A stretch of 64,000 nucleotides of DNA, from the IMG/VR virus record IMGVR_UViG_3300040856_003015, positions 1 to 64,000 of that record; one strand, 5' to 3'. The notes under the pieces are model-generated. The model was not told where the DNA came from. It searched no databases and was given only the letters and a program-made list of their open reading frames with translations. The DNA comes from a virus. Position numbers and translations under genes: made by a program. This document shows, one piece after another, positions 425-50,801 of the stretch. Every line of letters begins with the position of its first letter. Position 1 is the stretch's first letter.

Positions 425-2705
425 AATCTTCTTCTTCAGCACCAGAAAGTTCTTGGAGAAGTGATTGAAGGTCTTGTTTTGGTTCTTCCACTACCTCATC
501 AGTTTTAATATCATAAGTGTTTTGATAATAACTTGTTTTCCAACCCATAGAGTAAGAATAAAGCATATCGTGTGCCATAACCGAAACAGGAACTTCATTA
601 TCAGGATAATTTTCTGGATTATAAGACCAATTTCCAGAGATTGCCTGATCGAAGAACTTTTGCATTACCGCAACAACATTAATATAACCAGTGTTGCTAG
701 GCATATCCCACAGAAGCGTATAATTGTTCCTGAGAGTTTGATATTGGGGAACAATCTGCTTGAGTGGCCCCTTCTTGGATCTCTTAATGGACAAGAATCC
801 ACGAGGAGGTTCTATTCCATTTGTTGCGTTTGACACAACGGAACTGCTCTCCGATGGCATCTGTGCGGACAACGTACTGTGTCTGAGACCATGTTCCAAG
901 ATAGATGTTCTAAGAGATTCCCAATCATGTTGAAGTTTAATAGAAGAAATTTCGTCTACGTCTTTTTTATAAGTATCAATCGGAAGAATTCCATCTGCAT
1001 ACTTAGTGCGTCCAAAGTATTCACAATAACCCTTTTCCTTAGCAAGTTGATTTGATGCTTTAAGTAGATAATATTGGAAAGACTCAGAAAGACCATGAAC
1101 AGCATCCCATGCTTCTTGAGAATCATAATTAAACCCAAGTTTTGCCAAATAGTGAGCAAGACCAATAAACCCTATACCAAGCGAACGACGCGCCTTGGTG
1201 GCGATTTCTGCCGCCTTTACGGGGTATTTTTGGTAGTCAATCAATTCATCCAATGCGCGAACAGAAAGATCGCAAAGTTCCTCAAGTTCTTCATCAGATT
1301 TTACTTTACCAACGTTGATAGCGGAAAGAATGCAAAGAGCAATTTCTCCCATTTCATCATCAATATGCTGAATAGGATAAGTAGGAAGAGTGATTTCTTG
1401 ACAAAGATTGCTCATCTCAATTTTGTCCTTAAAAGAGGAGTGAGAGTTGCAATGATCAATATTCATAATATAAATACGACCAGTTTCTGCACGCTCCTTC
1501 AAAAGTTTAAGAATTAATTCTTGTGCCCTAATAGTCTTTTTTGGAATTGTTGGAGTTTGTTCATAAGATACATATAACTCATCAAATCGATCAGTACCAA
1601 AAGCATCATACAACCCCGGAACGTCGTGTGGAGAGAAGAGTGTGATCTCTGTGTCTTGGATGAAACGTTCATAGAAAATTTTGCTGATTTGAATAGAGTA
1701 ATCTAGTTTACGAACACGGTTATCCTCAGTTCCTTTATTATTCTTTAATACGAGGATGTCTTCTATTTCTTGGTGCCAGATTGGAAAGTGGACAGTAGCA
1801 CTTCCACCGCGAATCCCGTTTTGTGTACAACTTCTGACAGTTGCTTCAAACTTTTTGAGGAATGGGATAATACCTGTGTGAATAACTTCTCCCCCTCGGA
1901 TTTTACTGTTGATGCCACGGAGTCTACCTGCGTTGATACCAATTCCTGCTCTTTGAGCAACATACCTAAAAATTGCAGCATCACTAGACTCAATACTGCG
2001 CATGGTGTCGTCAATATCAACAAGAACGCAACTCGCAAATTGGCGAAGTGGGGTTCTAACGCCTCCCATGATTGGTGTTGGGATGTTGATCTTGTGCTTT
2101 GATATGGCATCGTAATATTTTTTTACGTGGTGTAATCTTGTTTGTTTTGGATACTCTGCAAAAATAGTCAGAGAAATCATCATGTACATAAATTGTGGAG
2201 TTTCATATATTCCCCCAGTACTTCTATCTTGCACGAGGTACTTATCAACGACTTGACGTAAACCTGCATAAGTGAATAAGTAGTCACGGTCATGATCGAT
2301 GTAAGAATTAACTTTTTCAATTTCCTCTTGTGAGTATTTAACAAAAATTTCACTATCATAAACACCATCATTCACACATTTATAAATGTGTTGCTCTAAA
2401 TGTGGAAGTTCTTTCATCTTTCCATACAACTGTTTTCTAATAGAAAAAAGAAGTAAGCGAGCAGCAACATATTGATAATTTGGATGATCAAGATCAATTA
2501 AATCTGATGCTGATCGAATTAAAATTTCTTGAATTTCTGCAGTCGTAATTCCATTATAAAATTGAATTCCTGACTTCATCTCAACTTGACTTGCAGAAAC
2601 ACCCGCAAGTCCTTTACATGCTTCTCCAACCATCAGATGAATTTTATCCAAATCGAGAGATTCGATTCTCCCATCACGCTTTTTTACTTTAGTTCCGTTA
2701 CTCAT
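405..2705 (-). CDS. nrdA: Ribonucleotide reductase class I alpha subunit (NrdA)
   Basis: Reduces ribonucleoside diphosphates to deoxynucleotides, with NrdB supplying the tyrosyl radical. An N-terminal ATP-cone (about residues 5-95) precedes the catalytic barrel. Visible motifs are the active-site cysteine in FASCVLVDIDDT (Cys226 from the ATG), NLCQE (Asn, Cys and Glu of the thiyl-radical site), the second redox Cys in ALCILSAINVGK, the Tyr-Tyr pair in SYYQN, and the C-terminal swinging pair CESC four residues from the end. The length (766 aa) is normal. I chose ATG 2705 rather than an in-frame TTG at 2717: it overlaps the primase stop (ATGA) and has GGAAG 5 nt upstream. NrdB is not in the window. 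The gene is probably transcribed from the primase promoter at 3698-3725. Confidence 0.97.
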   Translation of the reverse strand: MSNGTKVKKRDGRIESLDLDKIHLMVGEACKGLAGVSASQVEMKSGIQFYNGITTAEIQEILIRSASDLIDLDHPNYQYVAARLLLFSIRKQLYGKMKELPHLEQHIYKCVNDGVYDSEIFVKYSQEEIEKVNSYIDHDRDYLFTYAGLRQVVDKYLVQDRSTGGIYETPQFMYMMISLTIFAEYPKQTRLHHVKKYYDAISKHKINIPTPIMGGVRTPLRQFASCVLVDIDDTMRSIESSDAAIFRYVAQRAGIGINAGRLRGINSKIRGGEVIHTGIIPFLKKFEATVRSCTQNGIRGGSATVHFPIWHQEIEDILVLKNNKGTEDNRVRKLDYSIQISKIFYERFIQDTEITLFSPHDVPGLYDAFGTDRFDELYVSYEQTPTIPKKTIRAQELILKLLKERAETGRIYIMNIDHCNSHSSFKDKIEMSNLCQEITLPTYPIQHIDDEMGEIALCILSAINVGKVKSDEELEELCDLSVRALDELIDYQKYPVKAAEIATKARRSLGIGFIGLAHYLAKLGFNYDSQEAWDAVHGLSESFQYYLLKASNQLAKEKGYCEYFGRTKYADGILPIDTYKKDVDEISSIKLQHDWESLRTSILEHGLRHSTLSAQMPSESSSVVSNATNGIEPPRGFLSIKRSKKGPLKQIVPQYQTLRNNYTLLWDMPSNTGYINVVAVMQKFFDQAISGNWSYNPENYPDNEVPVSVMAHDMLYSYSMGWKTSYYQNTYDIKTDEVVEEPKQDLQSLLQELSGAEEEDCESCKI

Positions 2706-3673
2706 ATTTTCTTCCAAGTGGTAAATTTTAGTTTTGCTTCTAGTCCAGTGTAGATATTAGATTTTATCACAGATTGAACATCTAGTCCAGACAATACCAT
2801 TTCATTAATATCTTTTTCACTAATGGATGAAGGCCAAATAACTATTGGAATATTTTGATCGATTATTTTTTCCATCCGTAAGTGAATTTCATGGTTTCTT
2901 GGTTCATTGTCATAAACATATACCAAGTGAGAAATATTTAGATCTTTTAAATTAATGTCAGATCCACACATCGCTACACTGTTGTCAATAAAGTTAGAAT
3001 CAAATGGACCCTCAACAACATAAACTGGTTTATTTAAATCTAAGTTATCATAACCATAAATTTTTGGAGCATCCTGATCTAACATTATAGTGATATACTT
3101 GATTTTATTATTATCCAAGGATCTTCCCTGAAATCCGACTAATTTTTTATTGTAGTAAAGTGGTATAATGATCCTAGGTTCATCGTATACAATTTTTTCA
3201 AAAACTTTTTTTTGTTGATTTACCCACTGTTTAAAATTTGGAGTGTAAAAAAATTTTTTAGGGTCTAATTTCCTCTTATCAAGATATTCTTTTGCTTGTT
3301 CATTAGTATCTGCCGTCGGCAAATCTAACTTTTTTTTAAAGTTTGGTTTTTCGAATTTAAATTGTTTTTCTGGAGGAACAGAAGGCTTTGTTTTGGTATT
3401 ATTTGTTTTGAACTTTTCTAGAGAATACTCTTTATATAAAGAAGAATCAACTTGCTTTAAAAAATTTGAAAATGAGATACTTATGCCACAGTTATGGCAT
3501 TTATAATTTGTATTATTTTTTACGGAATAAAGAAATCCTCTAGATTTATTTTTATTTTTCTTAGAATCTCCACAGATAGGACACCGGAAGTTGTAGAGAT
3601 TTAAATTCTTCTTTGAAAATTTATCAAGTTTAACTGATAAAGTATTAATATATTTGTCATCAATAAAATCCAT
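2702..3673 (-). CDS. 61: DNA primase gp61
   Basis: Makes RNA primers for lagging-strand synthesis with helicase gp41. It has an N-terminal zinc finger (CPIC and CHNC, separated by a basic stretch) and a TOPRIM-like core with VYVVEGPFDSNFID, MCGSD and VYVYDNEPR supplying the acidic metal-binding residues. The length (323 aa) matches T4 gp61. The frame is open back to 3712, but ATG 3673 is preferred because the predicted transcription start of the promoter at 3698-3725 is near 3691. The stop overlaps the nrdA start by 4 nt, so primase and nrdA are probably translationally coupled. Confidence 0.9.
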   Translation of the reverse strand: MDFIDDKYINTLSVKLDKFSKKNLNLYNFRCPICGDSKKNKNKSRGFLYSVKNNTNYKCHNCGISISFSNFLKQVDSSLYKEYSLEKFKTNNTKTKPSVPPEKQFKFEKPNFKKKLDLPTADTNEQAKEYLDKRKLDPKKFFYTPNFKQWVNQQKKVFEKIVYDEPRIIIPLYYNKKLVGFQGRSLDNNKIKYITIMLDQDAPKIYGYDNLDLNKPVYVVEGPFDSNFIDNSVAMCGSDINLKDLNISHLVYVYDNEPRNHEIHLRMEKIIDQNIPIVIWPSSISEKDINEMVLSGLDVQSVIKSNIYTGLEAKLKFTTWKKI

Positions 3674-3697
3674 AATAAAAAATCCAAAGACAACACT

Positions 3698-3725
3698 AGT
3701 ATACCAGATCACGTCCCGTTGTCAA
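3698..3725 (-). promoter_or_regulatory. Sigma70-type early promoter for primase-nrdA
   Basis: Minus strand TTGACA (3720-3725), a 16-nt spacer, then TATACT (3698-3703) with an extended -10 TGG in front. The expected start is near 3691, giving a leader of about 18 nt to the primase ATG. It sits alone in the gap between the 141-aa gene and gene 61. Confidence 0.7.
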
Positions 3726-3740
3726 GGTCTAGATGGGTTA

Positions 3741-4166
3741 TTATTTTCTTATATTTTCTATTACAGATTCTCTTCCAGAAAAGACGTTTTTAACTGAAGG
3801 TGTGGCAACATCTAATACTGCAAGTAGTACGACCAACACTGTAAGAACTCCACCAACTTGCCACCTAAACTTTGCAAGATTATCTAATTTAGTTTCCAAC
3901 TTGTCCATTCTTTCTATTACAGATTTATGTTCTTCTTTATTTTCTCTTTTAACATCATCAACTATTTTTATAAGTAATTCGTCACTTTTTGTTGCTTGTC
4001 CTATCTTCTCATCATGTTTTGCTAAAATATTAGCAATCCTAGAATTTCCCTCAGATATTTTTTCTACAGCAGATTCAAGTTTGGCTAACATCTCTCTTGA
4101 TAAATCTTCATATATATTCAGTTTTGATTCTAGGACTGCAAGCTTAGACTCTGAAGATTTAAACAT
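3741..4166 (-). CDS. Coiled-coil protein with one C-terminal membrane segment
   Basis: A 141-residue protein. Residues 5-100 are heptad-like and charged (coiled coil), and residues 103-121 (VGGVLTVLVVLLAVLDVA core) form one hydrophobic helix, followed by a short tail with both charges. The plan resembles small phage membrane proteins of the XhlA type that anchor a coiled coil to the inner membrane, but no specific family can be proven by reading. A lysis accessory role is one possibility and is an inference. Its 5' end overlaps the 3' end of the 69-aa gene (4159) by 8 nt, so the two are cotranscribed. Confidence 0.75.
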   Translation of the reverse strand: MFKSSESKLAVLESKLNIYEDLSREMLAKLESAVEKISEGNSRIANILAKHDEKIGQATKSDELLIKIVDDVKRENKEEHKSVIERMDKLETKLDNLAKFRWQVGGVLTVLVVLLAVLDVATPSVKNVFSGRESVIENIRK

Positions 4167-4368: not shown

Positions 4369-4747
4369 TTTCGGTGTAAATTTTTTTTAATAAATTCATA
4401 CAATTTTCATCAATATCAATATCGTGAATATAAGTTTTTGGGTAATCTGGAAGTCTATCCAAAAAAACAATAAATGTTTTCACTTGCTTCCACATATCCT
4501 TGTCGAACTTATAAAAAAGCATGGGATTAGTTGCTTCACCAAATATATTGTACAAAGTCATGAAATGATTTATGAGAAGGTGAGTTTTTAATTCACCTTT
4601 ATTAATATACCTTTTCAATAACCTTTTAATATACTTAAAATGATTAAGATCTTTTTCAAAATCCTCACGAGTTATTGCATGAGGATTTTCATAATTTTTT
4701 ATAGCAAACAAAAGGAAATTATCGGAATTTAATTCATTAAAAAACAT
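4355..4747 (-). CDS. Conserved phage hypothetical protein
   Basis: 130 residues, mostly helical by composition, opening MFFNELNSDNFLLFAIKNYE and containing RYINKGELKTHLLINHFMTL and KQVKTFIVFLDRLPDYPKTY. No catalytic motif is visible. I recall similar proteins next to virion genes in marine T4-like phages, with no known role. It starts 6 nt after the stop of the Ig-like structural gene and overlaps the 69-aa gene downstream, so it belongs to the same transcript, probably the late one from 5632-5639. Confidence 0.75.
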   Translation of the reverse strand: MFFNELNSDNFLLFAIKNYENPHAITREDFEKDLNHFKYIKRLLKRYINKGELKTHLLINHFMTLYNIFGEATNPMLFYKFDKDMWKQVKTFIVFLDRLPDYPKTYIHDIDIDENCMNLLKKIYTENGKN

Positions 4748-36546: not shown

Positions 36547-37197
36547 TTACAACGAATTCAAAAATTCGTTAAATAAGTTTAATTTATGTTCTTCTAAAAC
36601 TCTTTGATCTACTAATGTATTAATTCTTCTTTTAGTTTGCTCAGCAATCTTTTCTCTCAAAATACCACCATCCCATACCCACTCCTTTCCTTCCATAATT
36701 CCAGATACAAACGCATCAGGTGCAGAAGGATCTGCTACAATATCAGCAGCAGTTGCTAGCATGAAATCTTCGCCAACTTCCTTATAACCTTTTTGGTTTT
36801 CTCTAAGTGAACCAATACCCCTAGAAGACACTCCAAGAGTTACTCCATCTTTGAGTAAAGATTCTGCAATCTTACCCATAGGAGTAGATAAAATTTGTGC
36901 TTTACCTACAAAGTTATTACCTACTTGATTTAACTCAGTAATTTTATGTGAAACACGATCAAGATTTACAGTTGGTCCATCTGGATGACCAAGTTCTCCA
37001 AGAGCACGACCTTTTTGAACATATTGCTCATTATAACGCTTTACTTCCTTTTCCATGATTGAAAGAGGATACATTCTTCCATTTCTATTAACACATTCTG
37101 CTTGTAGAAATGGTCCTTTAATGTAAAGTTTTTGGTCTTTTCCAGTTCCTTCTTTAAGAACTTCTACCTTTTCGATTTCTTCTCTGATTAGTTTCAT
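36547..37197 (-). CDS. 21: Prohead core protease gp21
   Basis: 216 residues. LYIKGPFLQAECVNRNGRMYP, the catalytic His in ALGELGHPDGP and Ser in LGVSSRGIGSL are the serine-protease signature of the T4 U9/S78 type. It trims gp23, gp22 and capsid-targeted proteins. Its substrates in this window include the MK-x-[FY] tagged proteins. It follows the 88-aa gene by 5 nt. Confidence 0.95.
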   Translation of the reverse strand: MKLIREEIEKVEVLKEGTGKDQKLYIKGPFLQAECVNRNGRMYPLSIMEKEVKRYNEQYVQKGRALGELGHPDGPTVNLDRVSHKITELNQVGNNFVGKAQILSTPMGKIAESLLKDGVTLGVSSRGIGSLRENQKGYKEVGEDFMLATAADIVADPSAPDAFVSGIMEGKEWVWDGGILREKIAEQTKRRINTLVDQRVLEEHKLNLFNEFLNSL

Positions 37198-37510: not shown

Positions 37511-38968
37511 TTACCTACTAATTTCTTCCCAGTCCAGTGAAGCAAAAACATTAGCACCAGAAGTATCAGTGGCACAAACAAGTGTTAATTCATAAGGAGT
37601 TCCAGTTAATCCATTTCTTTCTAACTGGAACTTAAAGAGTGCTTCTTTGAGAATATCTACTGATGCTTGTGATTGATTATTTGATGCGAAAAATCCAGAT
37701 GCTAATATTCTTCCACCACTCACAGTTCCACCATCAATCTTATATTCAACTGCACTATCAACCCCAGCACTTACCCAAGTTCCACCTGATGTAGTTGTAG
37801 ATGCTCTCACCTGCCAATTATATAATGGTCCATTTCCCGTTCCCATAATTGATAATGCAGTCAAAATAACAATTGCATCTAATCTATTTGGAGAAGATTT
37901 GAGACGAATTGAAAGTACTGGATAATAAGTTCCTGCTGGTGAAGGTAACTCTACTGGTGCCGTAATTGGTGTTTGTACTGCCTGTTGTAATCCACGAAGT
38001 TCATAACCACCTTCTGAAATCACAGAAGAACAAACCTGTTTGAGTGTGCTTGAACTTGTAGTAATTCCAGTATTACTAATCTCATATCTCAAAGGTAATG
38101 ATGCTGTTGTAATATAAGTTGATTGAATAATATTTGCGTGATGGAATGAATGGCAATGAACAAATTGACCGTTAATCACAAAACCAATTCTTACAGTTCC
38201 AAGTCCCAACCACTCAATATCCATCCAAAGTATTTGTGCTTTATCTTTGGATAGTGTAATACCAGATGGACCAGTTCCATCTAACTTATCAATATTCCAA
38301 GATGATTGTGATACTCTTGTTTCTATTCCAGTTGATAAACTTCTTTCTACGAAATATGCAGTAGTTCCATCAATCTCAAAATACATTCCATTGTCTGCAC
38401 CAAAATATCCAATTCTTTGCCTTAGATTTGCTTTTGGTGTTGCAGGAACAAAAGTATTCAATACTAATAATGACTTTCCTGGTTGATATGAAAATACTTT
38501 TGTGGTTTCTCTAATTGCAGAACACCCAGCAGTTGTTCCAATACCAATATTAACTAATCCTTGAGTGGTTGCAAATTCAACTGTAGAACCTGTTCCTACT
38601 AACAAACTATCCCAAAGATTATTATCTCTATATCTGTGAGAACTATCAAAAAGTGTGAGAGGATTTGATACTCTTGTTCTTCCAAAAGCATCTGTAGTTC
38701 CTGTTGGTGGACTAGTTGCGACTGTTCCAGTTATCGGAATTGGATTTCCAGTATCATTTTTAATTTCAACTTCTGGGATTGTTCCAATATTGACAGTTCC
38801 ACTGATGGATACTGTATTTCCTATAGAAACTGTAGTATTTCCAATAGATACTGGAAAACGATTTGTTTCTGTTACTTGCTCACCATCACTAGTTGCAACA
38901 TTAAAAACCTCAAAGAGACTTCTTTCTTGATTTAGAAAGTCCTGTGTATTTTTATTCCACTGTGCCAT
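37511..38968 (-). CDS. Virion structural protein, fibre- or decoration-like
   Basis: 485 residues, MAQWNKNTQDFLNQERSLFEVF then beta-rich repeats in residues 40-75 (SIGNTTVSIGNTVSISGTVNIG), TTDAFGRTRVSNPLTLFDSSHRY, GYFGADNGMYFEIDG, and a C-terminal lectin-like beta region. The TDAFGRxRVS-NP-TLFDS motif recurs in marine phage structural proteins. Attachment to the capsid or a fibre is likely; exact role unknown. It lies in the 20-67-21 head cluster. Confidence 0.7.
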   Translation of the reverse strand: MAQWNKNTQDFLNQERSLFEVFNVATSDGEQVTETNRFPVSIGNTTVSIGNTVSISGTVNIGTIPEVEIKNDTGNPIPITGTVATSPPTGTTDAFGRTRVSNPLTLFDSSHRYRDNNLWDSLLVGTGSTVEFATTQGLVNIGIGTTAGCSAIRETTKVFSYQPGKSLLVLNTFVPATPKANLRQRIGYFGADNGMYFEIDGTTAYFVERSLSTGIETRVSQSSWNIDKLDGTGPSGITLSKDKAQILWMDIEWLGLGTVRIGFVINGQFVHCHSFHHANIIQSTYITTASLPLRYEISNTGITTSSSTLKQVCSSVISEGGYELRGLQQAVQTPITAPVELPSPAGTYYPVLSIRLKSSPNRLDAIVILTALSIMGTGNGPLYNWQVRASTTTSGGTWVSAGVDSAVEYKIDGGTVSGGRILASGFFASNNQSQASVDILKEALFKFQLERNGLTGTPYELTLVCATDTSGANVFASLDWEEISR

Positions 38969-38971
38969 AAA

Positions 38972-39301
38972 TTAAATCCATTCTAGTTTTGAAGGATGAT
39001 ATCTTTTAATATCTTTTATATTTACTTGATTGTTTTTTTCTTGAATTGGGTATATATTGTGAACTATGGAACCTGGATAATCACTTTGAAGCATTTCTCC
39101 CAATTCTCTACGAGACGGTAGTGTATAACTGTCCAATTGAAGTTCAATTCGATAAATCTGCCCTTCCCAAAGAAAGTCCGCAAAAAAACTTTTAGTTTCT
39201 TTTACATCTTCTGGGAAATCGCTTTTTACAATAATTGTCCCAACTGACGCATTGCCAGAAATATTTACAGATTCTGATAAAAAGTTTTTAAAAGTTTTCA
39301 T
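38972..39301 (-). CDS. Capsid-targeted small protein
   Basis: 109 residues. The N terminus MKTFKNFLSES matches the capsid targeting pattern, with a predicted cut after Glu9. The remainder FFADFLWEGQIYRIELQL, TLPSRRELGEMLQSDYPGSIV shares its W-x-G-x-x-Y and P-x-R-x-E, YPGS motifs with the C-terminal part of the DUF5661 protein at 46444. It lies between the structural 485-aa gene and the 67-like gene. Probably an internal head protein. Confidence 0.7.
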   Translation of the reverse strand: MKTFKNFLSESVNISGNASVGTIIVKSDFPEDVKETKSFFADFLWEGQIYRIELQLDSYTLPSRRELGEMLQSDYPGSIVHNIYPIQEKNNQVNIKDIKRYHPSKLEWI

Positions 39302-44329: not shown

Positions 44330-45982
44330 TTAATTAATATAGTCCCACATATATGACATATCACCATATTCATCAGTAAACCATCTATCACCTTCTTTAT
44401 CGACAAAAGTTCCGTCCTGAGTTAATCCATCCGATATAAATCCAAAAGGAGACATATCTTGCTCTATTTGATTTTTTTGCTCTTGATAAAGTCTTTTTCT
44501 TATATCCTGATCCGTAAGTTCTTTGAAATAATCTTCATTGATCATCCAAGAGTACATAACTAAACACATTACCAAATCATCATTTCTACCTTCTTCAGCC
44601 TCGAAAGAATTTCCTTTTTGTATAAAAGTTGTTAATTCGTTTATAATATCAAAATCTTCAAATACTAATTTACTTTCTTCAATTAGAGTTTTTAAATTTA
44701 AACATCCGACTTTTTTTATAGTTTTGGACATTTTTACTCCCAACTGAACTTTTTTTCCAGAAAATCCTTGGCCCAAAACTTGTCCAGCTCTTCCTCTCAT
44801 GGAAGTCATGAGTAAATTTGAATACTCTAATTCATAAAATAATCCCGCAGCAACCTGATCACCAACATCATTAACCTCACATAAAACATGTGCTTTATTA
44901 TATGATAAAGCAACATTTCTTATAATTTGTGGGAAAAATAGTGGTCTTATTTGATTATTTCTATACTTTGCAACAACTTTATGTGGAAATTGTGATACAT
45001 CAAAAACAACAAATGCGGAGAAATCTTTTTCTACTCCTCTAGCAACATCGACAGTTACTGCATATGTATGATCATCTACAGGATCTTCATACACATCTAA
45101 CCCAGCATTTGATGTTATTGGATTACTAAAGACTAATGAATTCAATTTTGGACCAGAAATCAGTGTATCTGCAGATCCTAAAAACTGGCACTCAAATTCT
45201 TGTCTCCATTGTGCTTCAGATGTGTTTGCAATAGTAGTCTTTTTGAAGTTTTCATCTCTACCAGGAACATCTGTCCAATGGACCTCTAATGGTACATATT
45301 CATTCTTCCCCTTTTGGGCATCACTCCATAGTCTATAGAAATGATTCATTCCAAATGGAGTTGAAACAACTATAACTTTAGATGAACTACCGGAAGTAAT
45401 AGTTGGATATACCGAACTGAAGAAATTATCTGCTACCTGATTTGGTACGAAAGCAAATTCGTCTAGGAATATTATATTGTAAGTACCACCACGAACTGAT
45501 GATGCAGAAGTTGATGATGCAAATATTTTGGATCCATTTTCTAATTCTAGAGAACCTTTATTCCATGATAATATACCCTGTTGCAACCATCTTGGTAGAT
45601 TTTCATACCCAGTTTGTAATCTAGCAAGCAAATCTCTTGCAGTATTTGCTTTGTTTGCTAGAATAGCAACATTAACATTATCATTAAATATTGCATAGTG
45701 TAGTAGATATGAAACTACTGTGGTTGATTTTCCACTCTGTCTCGGTAACTTACATATATTAAATCTATTATCATGAAAACTTCGTAACATATTTTTTTGG
45801 AATGGGTACATAGTAAAAGGTTGTAACCCATGATCCAAAGTAACAATTTTTATGTAATTATTGGCAAAATATACTGGATCTCTGGAACAATTTATAAATT
45901 CCTCAATTTGGTTTCCACTAAATTCATGTTTTGTGTTTGCCTTTTTTAGTAACGGATTACCGAGGTAAAATTCTTCAGACAT
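44330..45982 (-). CDS. 17: Terminase large subunit gp17
   Basis: 550 residues. ATPase domain: Walker A LPRQSGKST, Walker B IIFLDEFAFV, coupling motif VVSTP. RNase H-fold nuclease: TVDVARGVEKDFSAFVVFD, CEVNDVGDQVA, and a final acidic pair in EEGRNDDLVMCLVMY. It cuts concatemers and pumps DNA through gp20. It is not next to its small subunit, which lies 5 kb upstream at 51060. Confidence 0.98.
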   Translation of the reverse strand: MSEEFYLGNPLLKKANTKHEFSGNQIEEFINCSRDPVYFANNYIKIVTLDHGLQPFTMYPFQKNMLRSFHDNRFNICKLPRQSGKSTTVVSYLLHYAIFNDNVNVAILANKANTARDLLARLQTGYENLPRWLQQGILSWNKGSLELENGSKIFASSTSASSVRGGTYNIIFLDEFAFVPNQVADNFFSSVYPTITSGSSSKVIVVSTPFGMNHFYRLWSDAQKGKNEYVPLEVHWTDVPGRDENFKKTTIANTSEAQWRQEFECQFLGSADTLISGPKLNSLVFSNPITSNAGLDVYEDPVDDHTYAVTVDVARGVEKDFSAFVVFDVSQFPHKVVAKYRNNQIRPLFFPQIIRNVALSYNKAHVLCEVNDVGDQVAAGLFYELEYSNLLMTSMRGRAGQVLGQGFSGKKVQLGVKMSKTIKKVGCLNLKTLIEESKLVFEDFDIINELTTFIQKGNSFEAEEGRNDDLVMCLVMYSWMINEDYFKELTDQDIRKRLYQEQKNQIEQDMSPFGFISDGLTQDGTFVDKEGDRWFTDEYGDMSYMWDYIN

Positions 45983-45988
45983 AATAGA

Positions 45989-46450
45989 TTACCATTTTAC
46001 TTTATTTGCCCAATAAGCTGCAGACATTTTTCCTTTTTTGATATTTTTTGCGTGTCTTGACTTAAATTTTTCACGTCTCTTGGCATATTCTTTTGACTCA
46101 CCTTCTTTTTTAGGAGAACCTTTTACTCCAAGTTGACCAAACCTTATAATTTTTTCTTTACCACCCTCACATGCTTTTACTATGTGGGATTTTCCAGATT
46201 CTCCAGACCCATGTGCTTGTACTTTAGGTTGATTACATTTCATCTTATTTTTATCAACAGATTCATTTTTTACTCTTAAATCTGTATATAATTTTCCTTT
46301 ACCATCAACTGATGGTATGAATGCACCATATGGTCCAGATTTTTTGTCTTTATCGTCAATAAATCCATCAATATTCGAATCACTGCGTTTAATAGATTTT
46401 TTTATTTTATTGAGAAGTTCCTTCTTAGATCTAGGAGGAACTTCTATTTC
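45989..46450 (-). CDS. -1 frame extension, likely made by programmed frameshifting (84-aa ORF inside)
   Basis: 153 codons open from 46450 to the stop at 45989, with no ATG, GTG or TTG until ATG 46243; translation from that ATG alone gives 84 residues and has no ribosome binding site. The region before the ATG is protein-like (EIEVPPRSKKELLNKIKKS, DGFIDDKDKKSGPYGAFIP, GKGKLYTDLRVKN). The part after it (ACEGGKEKIIRFGQLGVKGSPKK, RREKFKSRHAKNIKKGKMSAAYWANKVKW) is strongly conserved in marine T4-like phages, as I recall. Both parts are most simply read as the tail of the 46444-47769 protein, reached by a -1 shift at A AAA AAG, giving 593 residues. Alternative: a homopolymer error in the A7 run. 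Confidence 0.75.
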   Translation of the reverse strand, partial: EIEVPPRSKKELLNKIKKSIKRSDSNIDGFIDDKDKKSGPYGAFIPSVDGKGKLYTDLRVKNESVDKNKMKCNQPKVQAHGSGESGKSHIVKACEGGKEKIIRFGQLGVKGSPKKEGESKEYAKRREKFKSRHAKNIKKGKMSAAYWANKVKW

Positions 46451-46456
46451 TTTTTT
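46413..46456 (-). promoter_or_regulatory. -1 ribosomal frameshift signal (slippery site plus stem-loop)
   Basis: Slippery heptamer A AAA AAG in the zero frame (46450-46456), a 4-nt spacer (46446-46449), then a perfect 10-bp stem (AGAAGTTCCT with AGGAACTTCT; 46436-46445 and 46413-46422) with a 13-nt loop. The zero-frame stop TAG is inside the first stem arm. The layout is that of the E. coli dnaX site; GAGGGGG and AAAGGAAG lie just upstream and might act as the stimulatory Shine-Dalgarno. Confidence 0.75.
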
Positions 46457-47769
46457 TCTTCCTTTATTTCAACCCCCTCACCAATTGTATTATTATTCAT
46501 GAGATAATTTTTAGATTTTGAGTTTTGAACCTGTACGAGAGGTTGATTAGGATCAAGATCTGCAGTATTATATGTAACTACTCTTGATCCAGGATAAACT
46601 TTTTGGACTTCGGCAGTAACTTCTTTTCTATTTGGCATTCTAACTTGTGGGAAGAATAATCTCATAGAGTAATATTTTCCCCTCCAAGATATCACTACTG
46701 ATATTATATTTCCATTTTGAGCTTGGAGGCGAACTGATTCACTGACATTTTTTTTCTTATACCCCTTTGCCTTTTTCACTCCCTTTTTAACTGGTACGCA
46801 ATTTGGAACTTCTTTCCCATTCTTCATTTTCATACCAACTTGAGTATATCCTTTCCAACAAGGATTTTCTTCTTCAATAGAACCTGGCTTTATCAGATCT
46901 ATAAACTCTGCATAAACATTTCCATCACAATCTCTTACAATATTACTTTCATTTTTAGACTCAACTTTTTTTAATTTGCTATAATAATTTGGAACTTCAT
47001 CTAAATGTTGTAGGGCAGTTATTCTTGCATCTTTTCTATTTGATGTATGCTCTAATTCAACTTTAATGCCCATTTCCAATTGATTTTTTATAATATCTAA
47101 AGAAACTCCATGTTTTTGTGCTATTTCTTTAGGTGATTTATATGGTTGAACTGGACCTTTTGGGTCTTTTTCTTCACCCATTGGGCAGGACTCTTTATTA
47201 TGCACTGGACAATATTTACCTTTTTTGGTATGATTACAAGATGATTCCTCCATCATCTTCTTAGATAAAGGTTTGCATACTTTATCTGTCTTGCACCAGT
47301 ACATTCCCTTTCCACACTTTTCTTCACCAAGAATTTTTTCAACTAAAGAAACCTCCTCTTTATTAAATTTTGGGGGAAGACTAACCTTGGACACTTCTCT
47401 TTGCCTAAGTTTTTCTGCTTTGGGACCAAGAGCTTTTGCAGCTTCTGGTCCTAGTGCCTTTGCCCCAGTTCTTGGAGCAATTTGACTCCCTGTACTTGTT
47501 AAAATTTTAGTTCTAGGTATGCGATTACTTTTAGTATTTTCATCGATACTTTCATCGCTCTGAAGATATTCTGAAGCGGTATCAATGTAATCCGCAGCTT
47601 TAGTTATTTTAGATTGAACCCATGCTGGGAGTTGTTGATTTCCGGATTTAATTTGTTTCCTGAGATTTTTAATTGATCTCTCTATTGAATCTAATTCATT
47701 TCTAGCCATATATCCTTCATCATCTTTCTTTTTTCCTGAAGAAATTTCTTTATGATCTTCCCTAATCAT
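46444..47769 (-). CDS. DUF5661-containing multidomain virion protein
   Basis: 441 residues in the zero frame. Helical N terminus with LPAWVQSKITKAADYIDTASEYLQSD; a repeat ALGPEAAKALGPKA; a Cys-rich part (CGKGMYWCKTDKVCKPL and CNHTKKGKYCPVHNKESCP); a DUF5661-like segment (VSLDIIKNQLEMGIKVELEHT, ITALQHLDEVPNYYSKL); NPCWKGYTQVGMKMKNGKEVPNCVPV; and an SH3-like domain (SWRGKYYSMRLFFPQ, PGSRVVTY) shared with the 109-aa protein at 38972. These are modules common to marine T4-like virion proteins. It ends IKEEKKK, where a -1 shift would extend it. Function unknown. Confidence 0.82.
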   Translation of the reverse strand: MIREDHKEISSGKKKDDEGYMARNELDSIERSIKNLRKQIKSGNQQLPAWVQSKITKAADYIDTASEYLQSDESIDENTKSNRIPRTKILTSTGSQIAPRTGAKALGPEAAKALGPKAEKLRQREVSKVSLPPKFNKEEVSLVEKILGEEKCGKGMYWCKTDKVCKPLSKKMMEESSCNHTKKGKYCPVHNKESCPMGEEKDPKGPVQPYKSPKEIAQKHGVSLDIIKNQLEMGIKVELEHTSNRKDARITALQHLDEVPNYYSKLKKVESKNESNIVRDCDGNVYAEFIDLIKPGSIEEENPCWKGYTQVGMKMKNGKEVPNCVPVKKGVKKAKGYKKKNVSESVRLQAQNGNIISVVISWRGKYYSMRLFFPQVRMPNRKEVTAEVQKVYPGSRVVTYNTADLDPNQPLVQVQNSKSKNYLMNNNTIGEGVEIKEEKKK

Positions 47770-47792: not shown

Positions 47793-47800
47793 TATTTATT
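47793..47800 (-). promoter_or_regulatory. Probable late promoter for the DUF5661 gene
   Basis: AATAAATA on the minus strand, 23 nt before the ATG at 47769; one mismatch to the consensus. Confidence 0.45.
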
Positions 47801-48578
47801 AAAAACCAAGATTTTTAGATCGAACATAATCTAAATCATATGAAGTATATGTTATTGGAATATCTTCTTTTCCATATGGATTTTTTGTTGGACTACAATA
47901 TCTCCACTCATCACCCCATTTTTCATACATATATGAAAAATTTTCTTGATTAATTTGATCTAGTCTTTCTTTTAGTAATGGATCAGTTTTTGTTGTCTGA
48001 CTTCCATGCTCATAATATTGATCTTTATTACCTAGTCCGTGGTAATAGTTACTTTCCAAAGACAAAATTTTCTTTATTGGTCTATGTATGAATCTCATAA
48101 TATAATCTGCATCTTCACAATATGCTGGATATAAATTTTCATCAAAAAGACCAAATTTTGATATAACCCAGTCTTTAATCAAAAAAAGATCCCAACTGCC
48201 AACTCCAAAATCTCCAGGATTGCCATGAATTAACCCAATTTCATTATCTTGAGCATAATCATACATTTCTTTTAAAAGTCCTATCCCAAAAGAAACGTCA
48301 TCATTTACTATAATCCAATAAGGACAGTTCATATAACATTTTATAATTAAATTCCATGCACCAGAAACACCTATATTTCTAGGCAGATTACAAACGGTAA
48401 TTTTTTTTATAAATTTATGATTAATTTTCTTTATTTTTTCTAGGTCATCATCTAATTCACCTTTTCCATTATTATTAATAATCACAAATTCATCTACTGG
48501 ATAATCAACACTCATAATTAATCTCATTACCCAGAATGAACTATTAACAACTGCTGTTCCAATAACAGGTATACTCAT
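47799..48578 (-). CDS. GT2-like glycosyltransferase
   Basis: 259 residues. FVIINNNGKGELDD, VCNLPRNIGVSGAWNLIIK, YWIIVNDDVSFGIG (nucleotide-sugar and metal site), and AYCEDADYIMRFIHRP are the GT-A fold motifs. It would move a sugar onto a virion protein or host envelope component. It forms a block with the next two genes (ATGA overlap). Confidence 0.85.
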   Translation of the reverse strand: MSIPVIGTAVVNSSFWVMRLIMSVDYPVDEFVIINNNGKGELDDDLEKIKKINHKFIKKITVCNLPRNIGVSGAWNLIIKCYMNCPYWIIVNDDVSFGIGLLKEMYDYAQDNEIGLIHGNPGDFGVGSWDLFLIKDWVISKFGLFDENLYPAYCEDADYIMRFIHRPIKKILSLESNYYHGLGNKDQYYEHGSQTTKTDPLLKERLDQINQENFSYMYEKWGDEWRYCSPTKNPYGKEDIPITYTSYDLDYVRSKNLGF

Positions 48579-49822
48579 AGTAATCCCAACATATAGTGCT
48601 CAGATTTTTTAACTTTATCACTAATACATGTCATCTTGTTTAAAATTTCTTTATCCACCAAATCTGGGTGAACCCACCAATCTTCGTAAGATCTCCATTC
48701 ATCTGGAGATATATTATTAACAACTCTCACGTACCCGTATGATTCTAAGTATTTTTTAGATTTTTCCTGGAATTGTTTTGTTTGATCACAATAATAATCA
48801 TGTTCATAAGTAATTACAGCAAATTTAAATTGTTCAAATGGGATACTAAGAAGTATTTTATAAGTTACATCTGGAGGATCACAATCTAATTGTAGATAGT
48901 CTATTTCATTATAAAAACCAAATCCTTGCAAAAAGTTTTCATAATTTATTCTAGTAGCATCTTTTAATAAACAAAGGTTTTTTCTTTCTTTTGAAAATAT
49001 TTCTACAAATTTTTCATCAATATCTAAAGAAACTCCATCCCATCCAAATTCAGTCTCTAGAAGTGCAGTGTTATTTCCATAAAATGGATTTGCTGATCCA
49101 ATTTCTAGATATTTTCCTCTTTTTTTGCCATTCAACATAGAGAGGACGAACATATCCTGATAAGATTCAGAATAATTTCTTTCAATTGACTCTAAACCTG
49201 GGAATTTGAACTTATAAGAATCATACTTAGATTTATTATAATTTGTTAATTCTCTAGAGGTAGATGTAATCTTACAAAGATTTTCTATAGATTTCGATCT
49301 ATATTCTTCATTAATATCTTTACTTTGTACTAACTCTATAAAAGTTTTTCTAGAATCGTCACATAGTCCACACCACCAACCAGATACTGCACGCATGAAT
49401 TTTAGACTAAAAAATCCGGGATAATCTAATTTTGTCCTCAGATTTTCGGAATTTGGGTCTGATACATCTAATCCTATGCTTGATATAAGATAACACTCAT
49501 GCCAATCAGATGTAAATTCGTAGAATCTACTCATATAAAAATATGCTTCAGGCCTTTTAGGGCATGTCGCTATAGCATGTTGTATTAATCCTTTTACAGT
49601 GAAGTTTCTAGATCCTTGTTTACTAAAGCATGTTGATGCACGCAGAAGACCCTCATATTTTAACAAATCATTATCTGTTCTTTCAGCAGACCTTAAATAA
49701 TATGAAACTGCAGACGCTAACTGTCCAATATTATCATAATATAAGGCAAGGTCAAAATTTACTTCAGCATTATTTGGGTCAAAAACATATTTTTTTATTA
49801 ATTCATTTATTTCAGTTTGCAT
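48575..49822 (-). CDS. TPR-FkbM-like methyltransferase
   Basis: 415 residues. Residues 1-130 contain TPR-type helices (AEVNFDLALYYDNIGQLASAVSYYLRSAE, EAYFYMSRFYEFTSDWHECYLIS). Residues about 220-370 are a Methyltransf_21/FkbM-type SAM domain: YLEIGSANPFYGNNT, WDGVSLDIDEKFVEIF, DYLQLDCDPPDVT, and FAVITYEHDYY. Such enzymes methylate sugars. It overlaps both neighbours and is part of a glycan-modification cassette. Confidence 0.85.
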   Translation of the reverse strand: MQTEINELIKKYVFDPNNAEVNFDLALYYDNIGQLASAVSYYLRSAERTDNDLLKYEGLLRASTCFSKQGSRNFTVKGLIQHAIATCPKRPEAYFYMSRFYEFTSDWHECYLISSIGLDVSDPNSENLRTKLDYPGFFSLKFMRAVSGWWCGLCDDSRKTFIELVQSKDINEEYRSKSIENLCKITSTSRELTNYNKSKYDSYKFKFPGLESIERNYSESYQDMFVLSMLNGKKRGKYLEIGSANPFYGNNTALLETEFGWDGVSLDIDEKFVEIFSKERKNLCLLKDATRINYENFLQGFGFYNEIDYLQLDCDPPDVTYKILLSIPFEQFKFAVITYEHDYYCDQTKQFQEKSKKYLESYGYVRVVNNISPDEWRSYEDWWVHPDLVDKEILNKMTCISDKVKKSEHYMLGLL

Positions 49823-50801
49823 AAAGAAATTCCTCTATTACTTTTTCTGGGGTTTTTAATAAGTATGCACAATTGTCTTGGAAACCAAAAGTTATTAAGA
49901 AATCGTTATTGTATTTTGCCATACCTATGCAAAATTCTACATGACCAGACATTATTGAAAAATCATTGGAATATTTTACCATATTCCAATTTTTATCCCA
50001 TAAAATTAATCTATGTCTATAAATTGCATCTTTTCTACCCACTTCGCTATTAAATAAATCAACTTCATGAGTTATTGCGAGATAGTGATCATTCCAAGAA
50101 ACTACCTGAGATCCTCCTCTAAGGTCTCTAGGGAGACTTATATGGTCTGTTAAAACCTCTGTAGTACATATATTAGTTATTGGATCTACTTTTACCAACT
50201 CAGTAGGATTAGACCACTTAATGTAATGATATGGAATATCTAAAACAGGCATCCAATTTTTTTCACAATATGAATCTGGATATTTTGGTGGGGGAATTCT
50301 TAATCTAGAAACTTCTTCTACTGAATTATCTGTAACAATTATTTCAGAAAGTTCCATTCTTCCCTGACCATTTGTTGTAGTATCCCTCCTTACACCAGAT
50401 ATATACAACTTTTCATCCCATTTAAAAATTCTAGCATCTTCTAGACCCACAAAATCCCACATAGGTTCGTATGTGTCAAATTTAGAAGTGTCTATCTTAT
50501 TATATCTTACAACATTAAAATTGTTATCTAGTTCACAATAATAATTATCTGTCCTTAAGTACATATCATGCTCTGGATGAACATATGTCAGAGGACCATA
50601 TTGATGCTGATATAATTTTTGTTCTGAATGATAAAATGTATAATTTACATGCCTAATATTTACTAAAATTTTTCCACCATCTATAAAAATAGATGGATTC
50701 ATTATACCAGTACCTGATGTTATATTACCAGGAATTATTAGTGGATGTATGTCTCCACCACATTCTAAAGATCTTCTAGAAAGAGAATATAAAAATTCCA
50801 T
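49812..50801 (-). CDS. GH130/beta-propeller-like protein
   Basis: 329 residues. GTGIMNPSIFIDGGKILVNIRHVNYTF, VGLEDARIFKWDEKLYISGVRRD, and VEFCIGMAKYNNDFLITFGFQDN follow the pattern of five-bladed propeller glycoside phosphorylases (GH130), in which blade motifs 'E-D-P-R' and 'H-E/I-G' line the active site; here 'LEDARIF' fits. A sugar-binding or sugar-cleaving role is likely, the exact one unknown. Adjacent to the transferase and methyltransferase genes. Confidence 0.6.
   Translation of the reverse strand: MEFLYSLSRRSLECGGDIHPLIIPGNITSGTGIMNPSIFIDGGKILVNIRHVNYTFYHSEQKLYQHQYGPLTYVHPEHDMYLRTDNYYCELDNNFNVVRYNKIDTSKFDTYEPMWDFVGLEDARIFKWDEKLYISGVRRDTTTNGQGRMELSEIIVTDNSVEEVSRLRIPPPKYPDSYCEKNWMPVLDIPYHYIKWSNPTELVKVDPITNICTTEVLTDHISLPRDLRGGSQVVSWNDHYLAITHEVDLFNSEVGRKDAIYRHRLILWDKNWNMVKYSNDFSIMSGHVEFCIGMAKYNNDFLITFGFQDNCAYLLKTPEKVIEEFLYAN

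Follow-up and report, generated by a model that had tools for sequence, protein, structure and literature searches.

A gene for a modular DUF5661 protein in an uncultured T4-like cyanophage is, in all likelihood, subject to a -1 programmed ribosomal frameshift of the dnaX type at the slippery heptamer A AAA AAG. The stretch analysed, 64,000 nucleotides in length and hereafter called the window, is taken from IMGVR_UViG_3300040856_003015, a 74.9-kb IMG/VR contig. The signal is present together with conserved synonymous sites, a -1 open reading frame under selection, an absence of start codons and a polarity that differs between relatives, and from this combination we infer that slippage occurs. 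The features of the junction in the window are as follows.

46444..47769 (-): zero-frame ORF of the modular DUF5661 protein, 441 aa, the predicted short product (read directly; Pfam DUF5661 match)
46954..47133 (-): DUF5661 domain (PF18905), residues 213-272 (Pfam profile, 3.7e-13)
46474..46749 (-): BETA module (our own label; AQNGN..WRGKYYSM..FFPQ), the final module ahead of the junction (relatives, alignment)
46465..46479 (-): conserved upstream cassette GAGGGGGTTGAAATA (family consensus GAGGTTGAAATA), containing an SD-like G-run (codon conservation in junctions)
46450..46456 (-): slippery heptamer A AAA AAG in the zero frame (read directly; found in 26/26 junctions fetched without using the heptamer)
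46444..46446 (-): zero-frame stop TAG (read directly)
46413..46445 (-): putative stimulatory hairpin, 10-bp stem, 13-nt loop, 4-nt spacer after the heptamer (folding, recoding tests)
45989..46450 (-): -1 frame extension, 153 codons and stop (read directly)
46265..46450 (-): E1 module (our own label), extension residues 1-62, without a start codon (homologues in loci L003, L192, L229 and L360; start scan)
45992..46264 (-): E2 module (phrog_7595), with an internal ATG at 46243; a stand-alone gene in other phages (homology searches, start scan)

The DUF5661 profile scores 50 bits against a gathering cut-off of 27, and the 3' end of the 441-aa ORF reads GAA GAA AAA AAG AAA TAG. A preliminary description of this DNA had claimed a zero-frame A AAA AAG, a 4-nt spacer, a 10-bp stem and a 13-nt loop, all of which are present on direct reading, with the spacer AAAT (46449-46446) and the arms AGAAGTTCCT (46445-46436) and AGGAACTTCT (46422-46413). 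It had also placed the stop codon in the first arm, which holds in part, as the TAG (46446-46444) spans spacer and first arm and is not wholly inside the latter. The -1 frame is open for the 153 codons claimed, ending at 45989, and the predicted fusion product would thus have 440 + 153 = 593 aa. Ranked by downstream structure, the heptamer is third of the 241 zero-frame slippery heptamers in long ORFs of the window, and among the 12 with the strongest downstream structure it is the only one lying four codons or fewer from the end of its ORF. Without the relatives, the evidence from the window is suggestive rather than decisive. Hairpins of equal strength follow the zero-frame heptamers AAAAAAT and AAATTTT at 4700 and 19463 (-), which lie far from ORF ends and are probably chance occurrences.

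A first-pass search with the extension returned E2 in two settings, as a short gene of its own and at the C-terminal end of long one-frame modular proteins; these matches would by themselves have suggested a broken gene in the window. The closest relatives, gathered by a search with the CX-DUF5661 part of the protein, include many in which the break falls between BETA and the C-terminal module. Counting the window, 17 distinct junctions have A AAA AAG followed by a zero-frame stop and the module in the -1 frame, and other relatives carry the same fusion in one frame and keep the heptamer; the conserved heptamer and the single fused ORF for which the preliminary description had looked to relatives thus both exist. 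The zero-frame protein of the split loci ends in ...VEIxExKK and a stop, encoded by the consensus ...GAG (or GGG) GTT GAA ATA nnn GAn nnA AAA AAG with TAA, TAG or TGA directly after it in all but L189 and L202; compared with this consensus, the window has one additional AAA between heptamer and stop. In these two loci, which come from different datasets, the -1 break lies further down, inside DUF6321, at G GGA AAG (TCG GGA AAG; L189 5822-6067, L202 2323-2568), which is likewise a classical heptamer for -1 slippage. The -1 modules behind A AAA AAG are E2, DUF6321 (PF19846), E1-DUF6321 or E1-E2, and the frame breaks are 16 of the -1 type against none of the +1 type.

When the whole viral collection was scanned for the motif plus TRR, 22 of the 23 contigs returned were family members of this layout; the other, L316, is unrelated to the family. 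Most matches of an earlier scan with the exact junction as pattern were due to chance, though the scan also brought up a twin contig of the window. The split in L241 looks like a private indel, with no slippery site and with close relatives in-frame, and the apparent two-CDS E2 matches in HMO-2011, CRP-345 and CRP-235 are in fact neighbouring stand-alone small genes. No member of the split class was found among cultured phages, in which DSL-LC02, P-TIM68 and S-SCSM1 have single-ORF DUF6321 fusions. In L292 (plus strand, 1516-3861), another long structural-looking protein, in which neither DUF5661 nor BETA is recognised, ends in VEIxExKK and a stop with E2 in the -1 frame; judged by this arrangement, the C-terminal slot is common to more than one protein.

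Loci fetched without using the heptamer yielded 26 distinct VEIxxxKK junctions, about half of them split and half in-frame, and A AAA AAG is present in 26/26, against a background of 6.5% of all xKK codings in long ORFs of the same loci; the junctions come from related sequences and are hence not independent trials. The GAG/GGG-GTT-GAA-ATA codons are likewise found in all 26 heptamer junctions, with GTT, GAA and ATA invariant there and mixed in VEI linkers lacking KK. Elsewhere synonymous sites have diverged (median pS 0.56 in E2), and across nine E2 split loci the -1 frame shows a median omega of 0.12, which indicates purifying selection. An SD-like G-run (GAGG/GGGG) is also conserved about 16 nt upstream of the heptamer. 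Since even one-frame relatives preserve the signal at the nucleotide level, it is very probably a real two-product switch and not a sequencing error.

The downstream RNA was assessed by folding and by synonymous recoding. The window hairpin has a fold energy of -13.8 kcal/mol (z -3.0, no shuffle as good), and the fold is better than those of all 1000 synonymous recodings of the same peptide (p<0.001). Hairpins lie 3-8 nt past the heptamer in 13/17 split loci (the window and 12/16 others) and are of several unrelated sequences, among them the AGAAGTTCCT stem of the window, AAGGCA-GNRA-TGCCTT, GATTGGC-AAAAA-GTCAATC and TCCTCC/GGAGGA. No hairpin was found within 45 nt of the heptamer in L192, L224, L259 and L292, of which L259 and L292 may have longer-range ones. 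The mean fold z of in-frame relatives is -0.47. Recoding gives p of about 0.05 or less in eight split loci, and p<0.05 also in 19% of sampled in-frame loci, so that single loci should not be over-read.

In 37 of 51 in-frame relatives a -1 stop lies one codon past the heptamer (AAAAAAG TCT GA), against a background of 8% after Lys codons, although the 51 include loci found by the heptamer pattern, and common descent accounts for the in-frame Ser-Glu codons that follow the heptamer, which means that these cases are not independent. Such relatives have the layout of E. coli dnaX, with a stop one codon after the slip, and slipping would give the short product. Given this prompt -1 stop, the family seems to produce one and the same pair of proteins, short and long, in either polarity, and we propose that this holds for the split and in-frame classes alike. 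A tree of the upstream protein requires at least six changes of frame status, the split state being common to a whole clade of nine. According to a review (PMC5009743), both polarities are found in dnaX, and when about half of the ribosomes shift, a slight change is enough to swap the product made by shifting with the one made by normal reading. The A AAA AAG cassette could be a standing frameshift dock, at which slippage near 50% would allow C-terminal modules to be swapped in either frame, the same two products would result and frame flips would be almost neutral; we advance this tentatively, at somewhat less than an even chance of its being correct. If true, a single family of virion proteins would show both module exchange and the reversal of polarity of a programmed frameshift as they take place.

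The mechanism that we propose for the window is as follows. Ribosomes ending the 441-aa protein would reach A AAA AAG, where tRNA-Lys would re-pair one base back, aided by the hairpin 4 nt downstream and perhaps by the SD-like element about 16 nt upstream, a putative stimulator. Ribosomes that do not slip would stop at the TAG and release the 441-aa protein; those that slip would read 153 more codons to give a 593-aa protein ending in the E1-E2 modules. The rate of slippage is probably high, because both polarities persist.

Several other explanations have to be weighed against a programmed frameshift. That the A7 run holds a sequencing or assembly error, the true gene being one ORF, would agree with the homopolymer at the break and with the single fused ORF in several relatives, but has next to no chance of being right. 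A separate record, IMGVR 3300021335_000269 (dataset 3300021335), aligns without gaps over 13,141 bases, with 2 mismatches, and shows the identical seven As and TAG at the junction, which makes a lone assembly error unlikely; the eight As that according to the preliminary description would mean a single ORF are absent there. Moreover, 16 further distinct sequences, drawn from about 15 datasets, break in the same way at this heptamer, and their stop codons are of three kinds. A recent frameshift mutation in a decaying gene that is losing its C-terminal module is very improbable too: in-frame relatives do exist and the tree does call for at least six changes of frame status, but a clade of nine has the split state throughout, the -1 ORF is under purifying selection, the heptamer and upstream codons are invariant, and all breaks are -1.

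It is improbable that the two frames are simply overlapping genes, the module being produced on its own (through translational coupling or internal initiation) and A AAA AAG having no part in it. This would suit E2, which is stand-alone in many phages (in S-EIVl, for example, directly after a long gene with TAATG) and which in E2-only split loci has an ATG 14 nt past the heptamer, most with AAGG before it, so that a separately started E2 (re-initiation) is possible there. The internal ATG at 46243 in the window, together with the stand-alone E2 genes elsewhere, means that E2 alone might also be made from this gene, but that ATG is without an SD match. The E1 and DUF6321 modules of split loci have no usable start codons: the first ATG, GTG or TTG of the -1 frame comes 57-63 codons in, well inside DUF6321, in L200, L205 and L271, and at codon 143 of 155 in L360 (E1-E2). 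The clean ATG and binding site before the extension, named beforehand as evidence against frameshifting, are therefore absent for E1 and DUF6321 extensions, and E2-only relatives do have the ATG, often with AAGG. The first 69 codons of the extension, described as protein-like, indeed have protein homologues (E1), and an AlphaFold model of E1-E2 reached a mean pLDDT of 51, too low for a fold search. The heptamer and the synonymous sites of the cassette are also conserved. Internal initiation may operate in addition to frameshifting, not instead of it. Unlikely, at perhaps a slim chance, is that the conserved nucleotides are a recombination joint for C-terminal module swaps and the frame breaks its tolerated by-products. 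Modules do swap at the joint, and some pairs of split loci match best over 27-42 nt close to it, but the precise A AAA AAG, the hairpins mainly in split loci, the -1-only breaks and the prompt -1 stop in in-frame loci are left unexplained; a recombination joint could be an additional role. Transcriptional slippage, which has a run-length requirement, is unlikely, since the number of As at the sites is only six to eight, mostly six or seven. Runs of 9 are given for it (PMC5009743).

The DUF5661 gene is closely followed by the large terminase gene (44330-45982), and in cultured Kyanoviridae its homologue stands between gp16 and gp17, annotated as a hypothetical, structural or virion protein. In S-SCSM1 the homologue adjoins terL, combines the same BETA module with a C-terminal DUF6321 in a single ORF, and is annotated 'virion protein'; the study behind that record identified virion proteins by mass spectrometry (PMC9602691), and the assignment of this ORF to the virion follows the annotation. 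The conserved linker VEIxE fits the T4 gp21 cleavage rule L/I-x-E (PMC9026906), and the window phage encodes gp21 (36547-37197), although a motif this short, in a protein with many charged residues, makes the cleavage idea weak. Taken together, the modular build, the position beside terL, the virion-annotated homologue, the VEIxE linker and the presence of gp21 suggest an internal head protein bearing a C-terminal basic module on only part of its copies. Both products would then enter the virion, probably the head.

Regarding the neighbourhood, a 109-aa phrog_1742 protein, a weak BETA homologue (36% over 36 aa), is encoded at 38972-39301 (-) between gp20 and gp21; cultured relatives, DSL-LC02 and S-SCSM1 among them, instead have the phrog_1742 gene immediately behind the DUF5661 gene. 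Between the phrog_1742 gene and gp21 of the window lies a gene for a 485-aa fibre-like protein without a Pfam match (37511-38968, -). Upstream of the DUF5661 gene, 47799-50801 (-) encodes a glycosyltransferase family 2 protein, a 415-aa TPR protein and an unknown 329-aa protein, where cultured relatives have gp16 or fibre-like genes.

In the literature searched, outside which most subscription papers fall, no paper naming DUF5661 was found, nor, with cyanophage and virion terms, any on frameshifting of this gene. Both dnaX-type frameshifting and phage structural proteins with an optional C-terminal domain have precedents; this family, its exchangeable modules and its frame flips appear unreported in that literature. 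A widespread virion-type family of uncultured T4-like cyanophages hereby joins, by prediction, the short list of phage structural proteins with programmed frameshifts. Its members form a natural series, with different modules behind one slippery site in both polarities, on which the idea that polarity becomes interchangeable near 50% frameshifting can be tested. These genes come out of automatic annotation split or truncated, and the E1 and DUF6321 modules, which lack a start codon, are lost.

Frameshifting is known to add optional C-terminal domains to phage structural proteins, as in the T3/T7 major capsid extension, phage A2 and Ig-like domains (PMC5009743). The present family resembles these in having an optional C-terminal domain on a virion-type protein by predicted frameshift, and differs in that the protein is not a major capsid or tail tube protein, the modules are E1, E2 and DUF6321 and not Ig-like, and the hosts of the gene are T4-like cyanophages. 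With the lambda G-GT tail assembly chaperone it would share a -1 frameshift and two products, and L189 and L202 appear to use the lambda-type heptamer, G GGA AAG; the gene, however, lies by terL and not before the tape measure gene, and its modules are different. Membership of the tail chaperones finds no support, as the gene is next to gp17, gp16 is upstream in relatives, and no homology match to a tail chaperone was obtained. Bacterial dnaX (tau/gamma) is a better analogy than tail chaperones with their set product ratio, having the same A AAA AAG, a downstream hairpin and possibly an SD-like element upstream, the spacing of which is longer in the cyanophage family than the approximately 10 nt of E. 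coli dnaX. Some bacterial dnaX genes are described as having, like the split class, the reversed arrangement, in which the zero frame stops immediately past the slippery site (PMC5009743). The difference from dnaX is that the DUF5661 family is an unrelated phage gene, with both polarities among close relatives and with exchangeable C-terminal modules.
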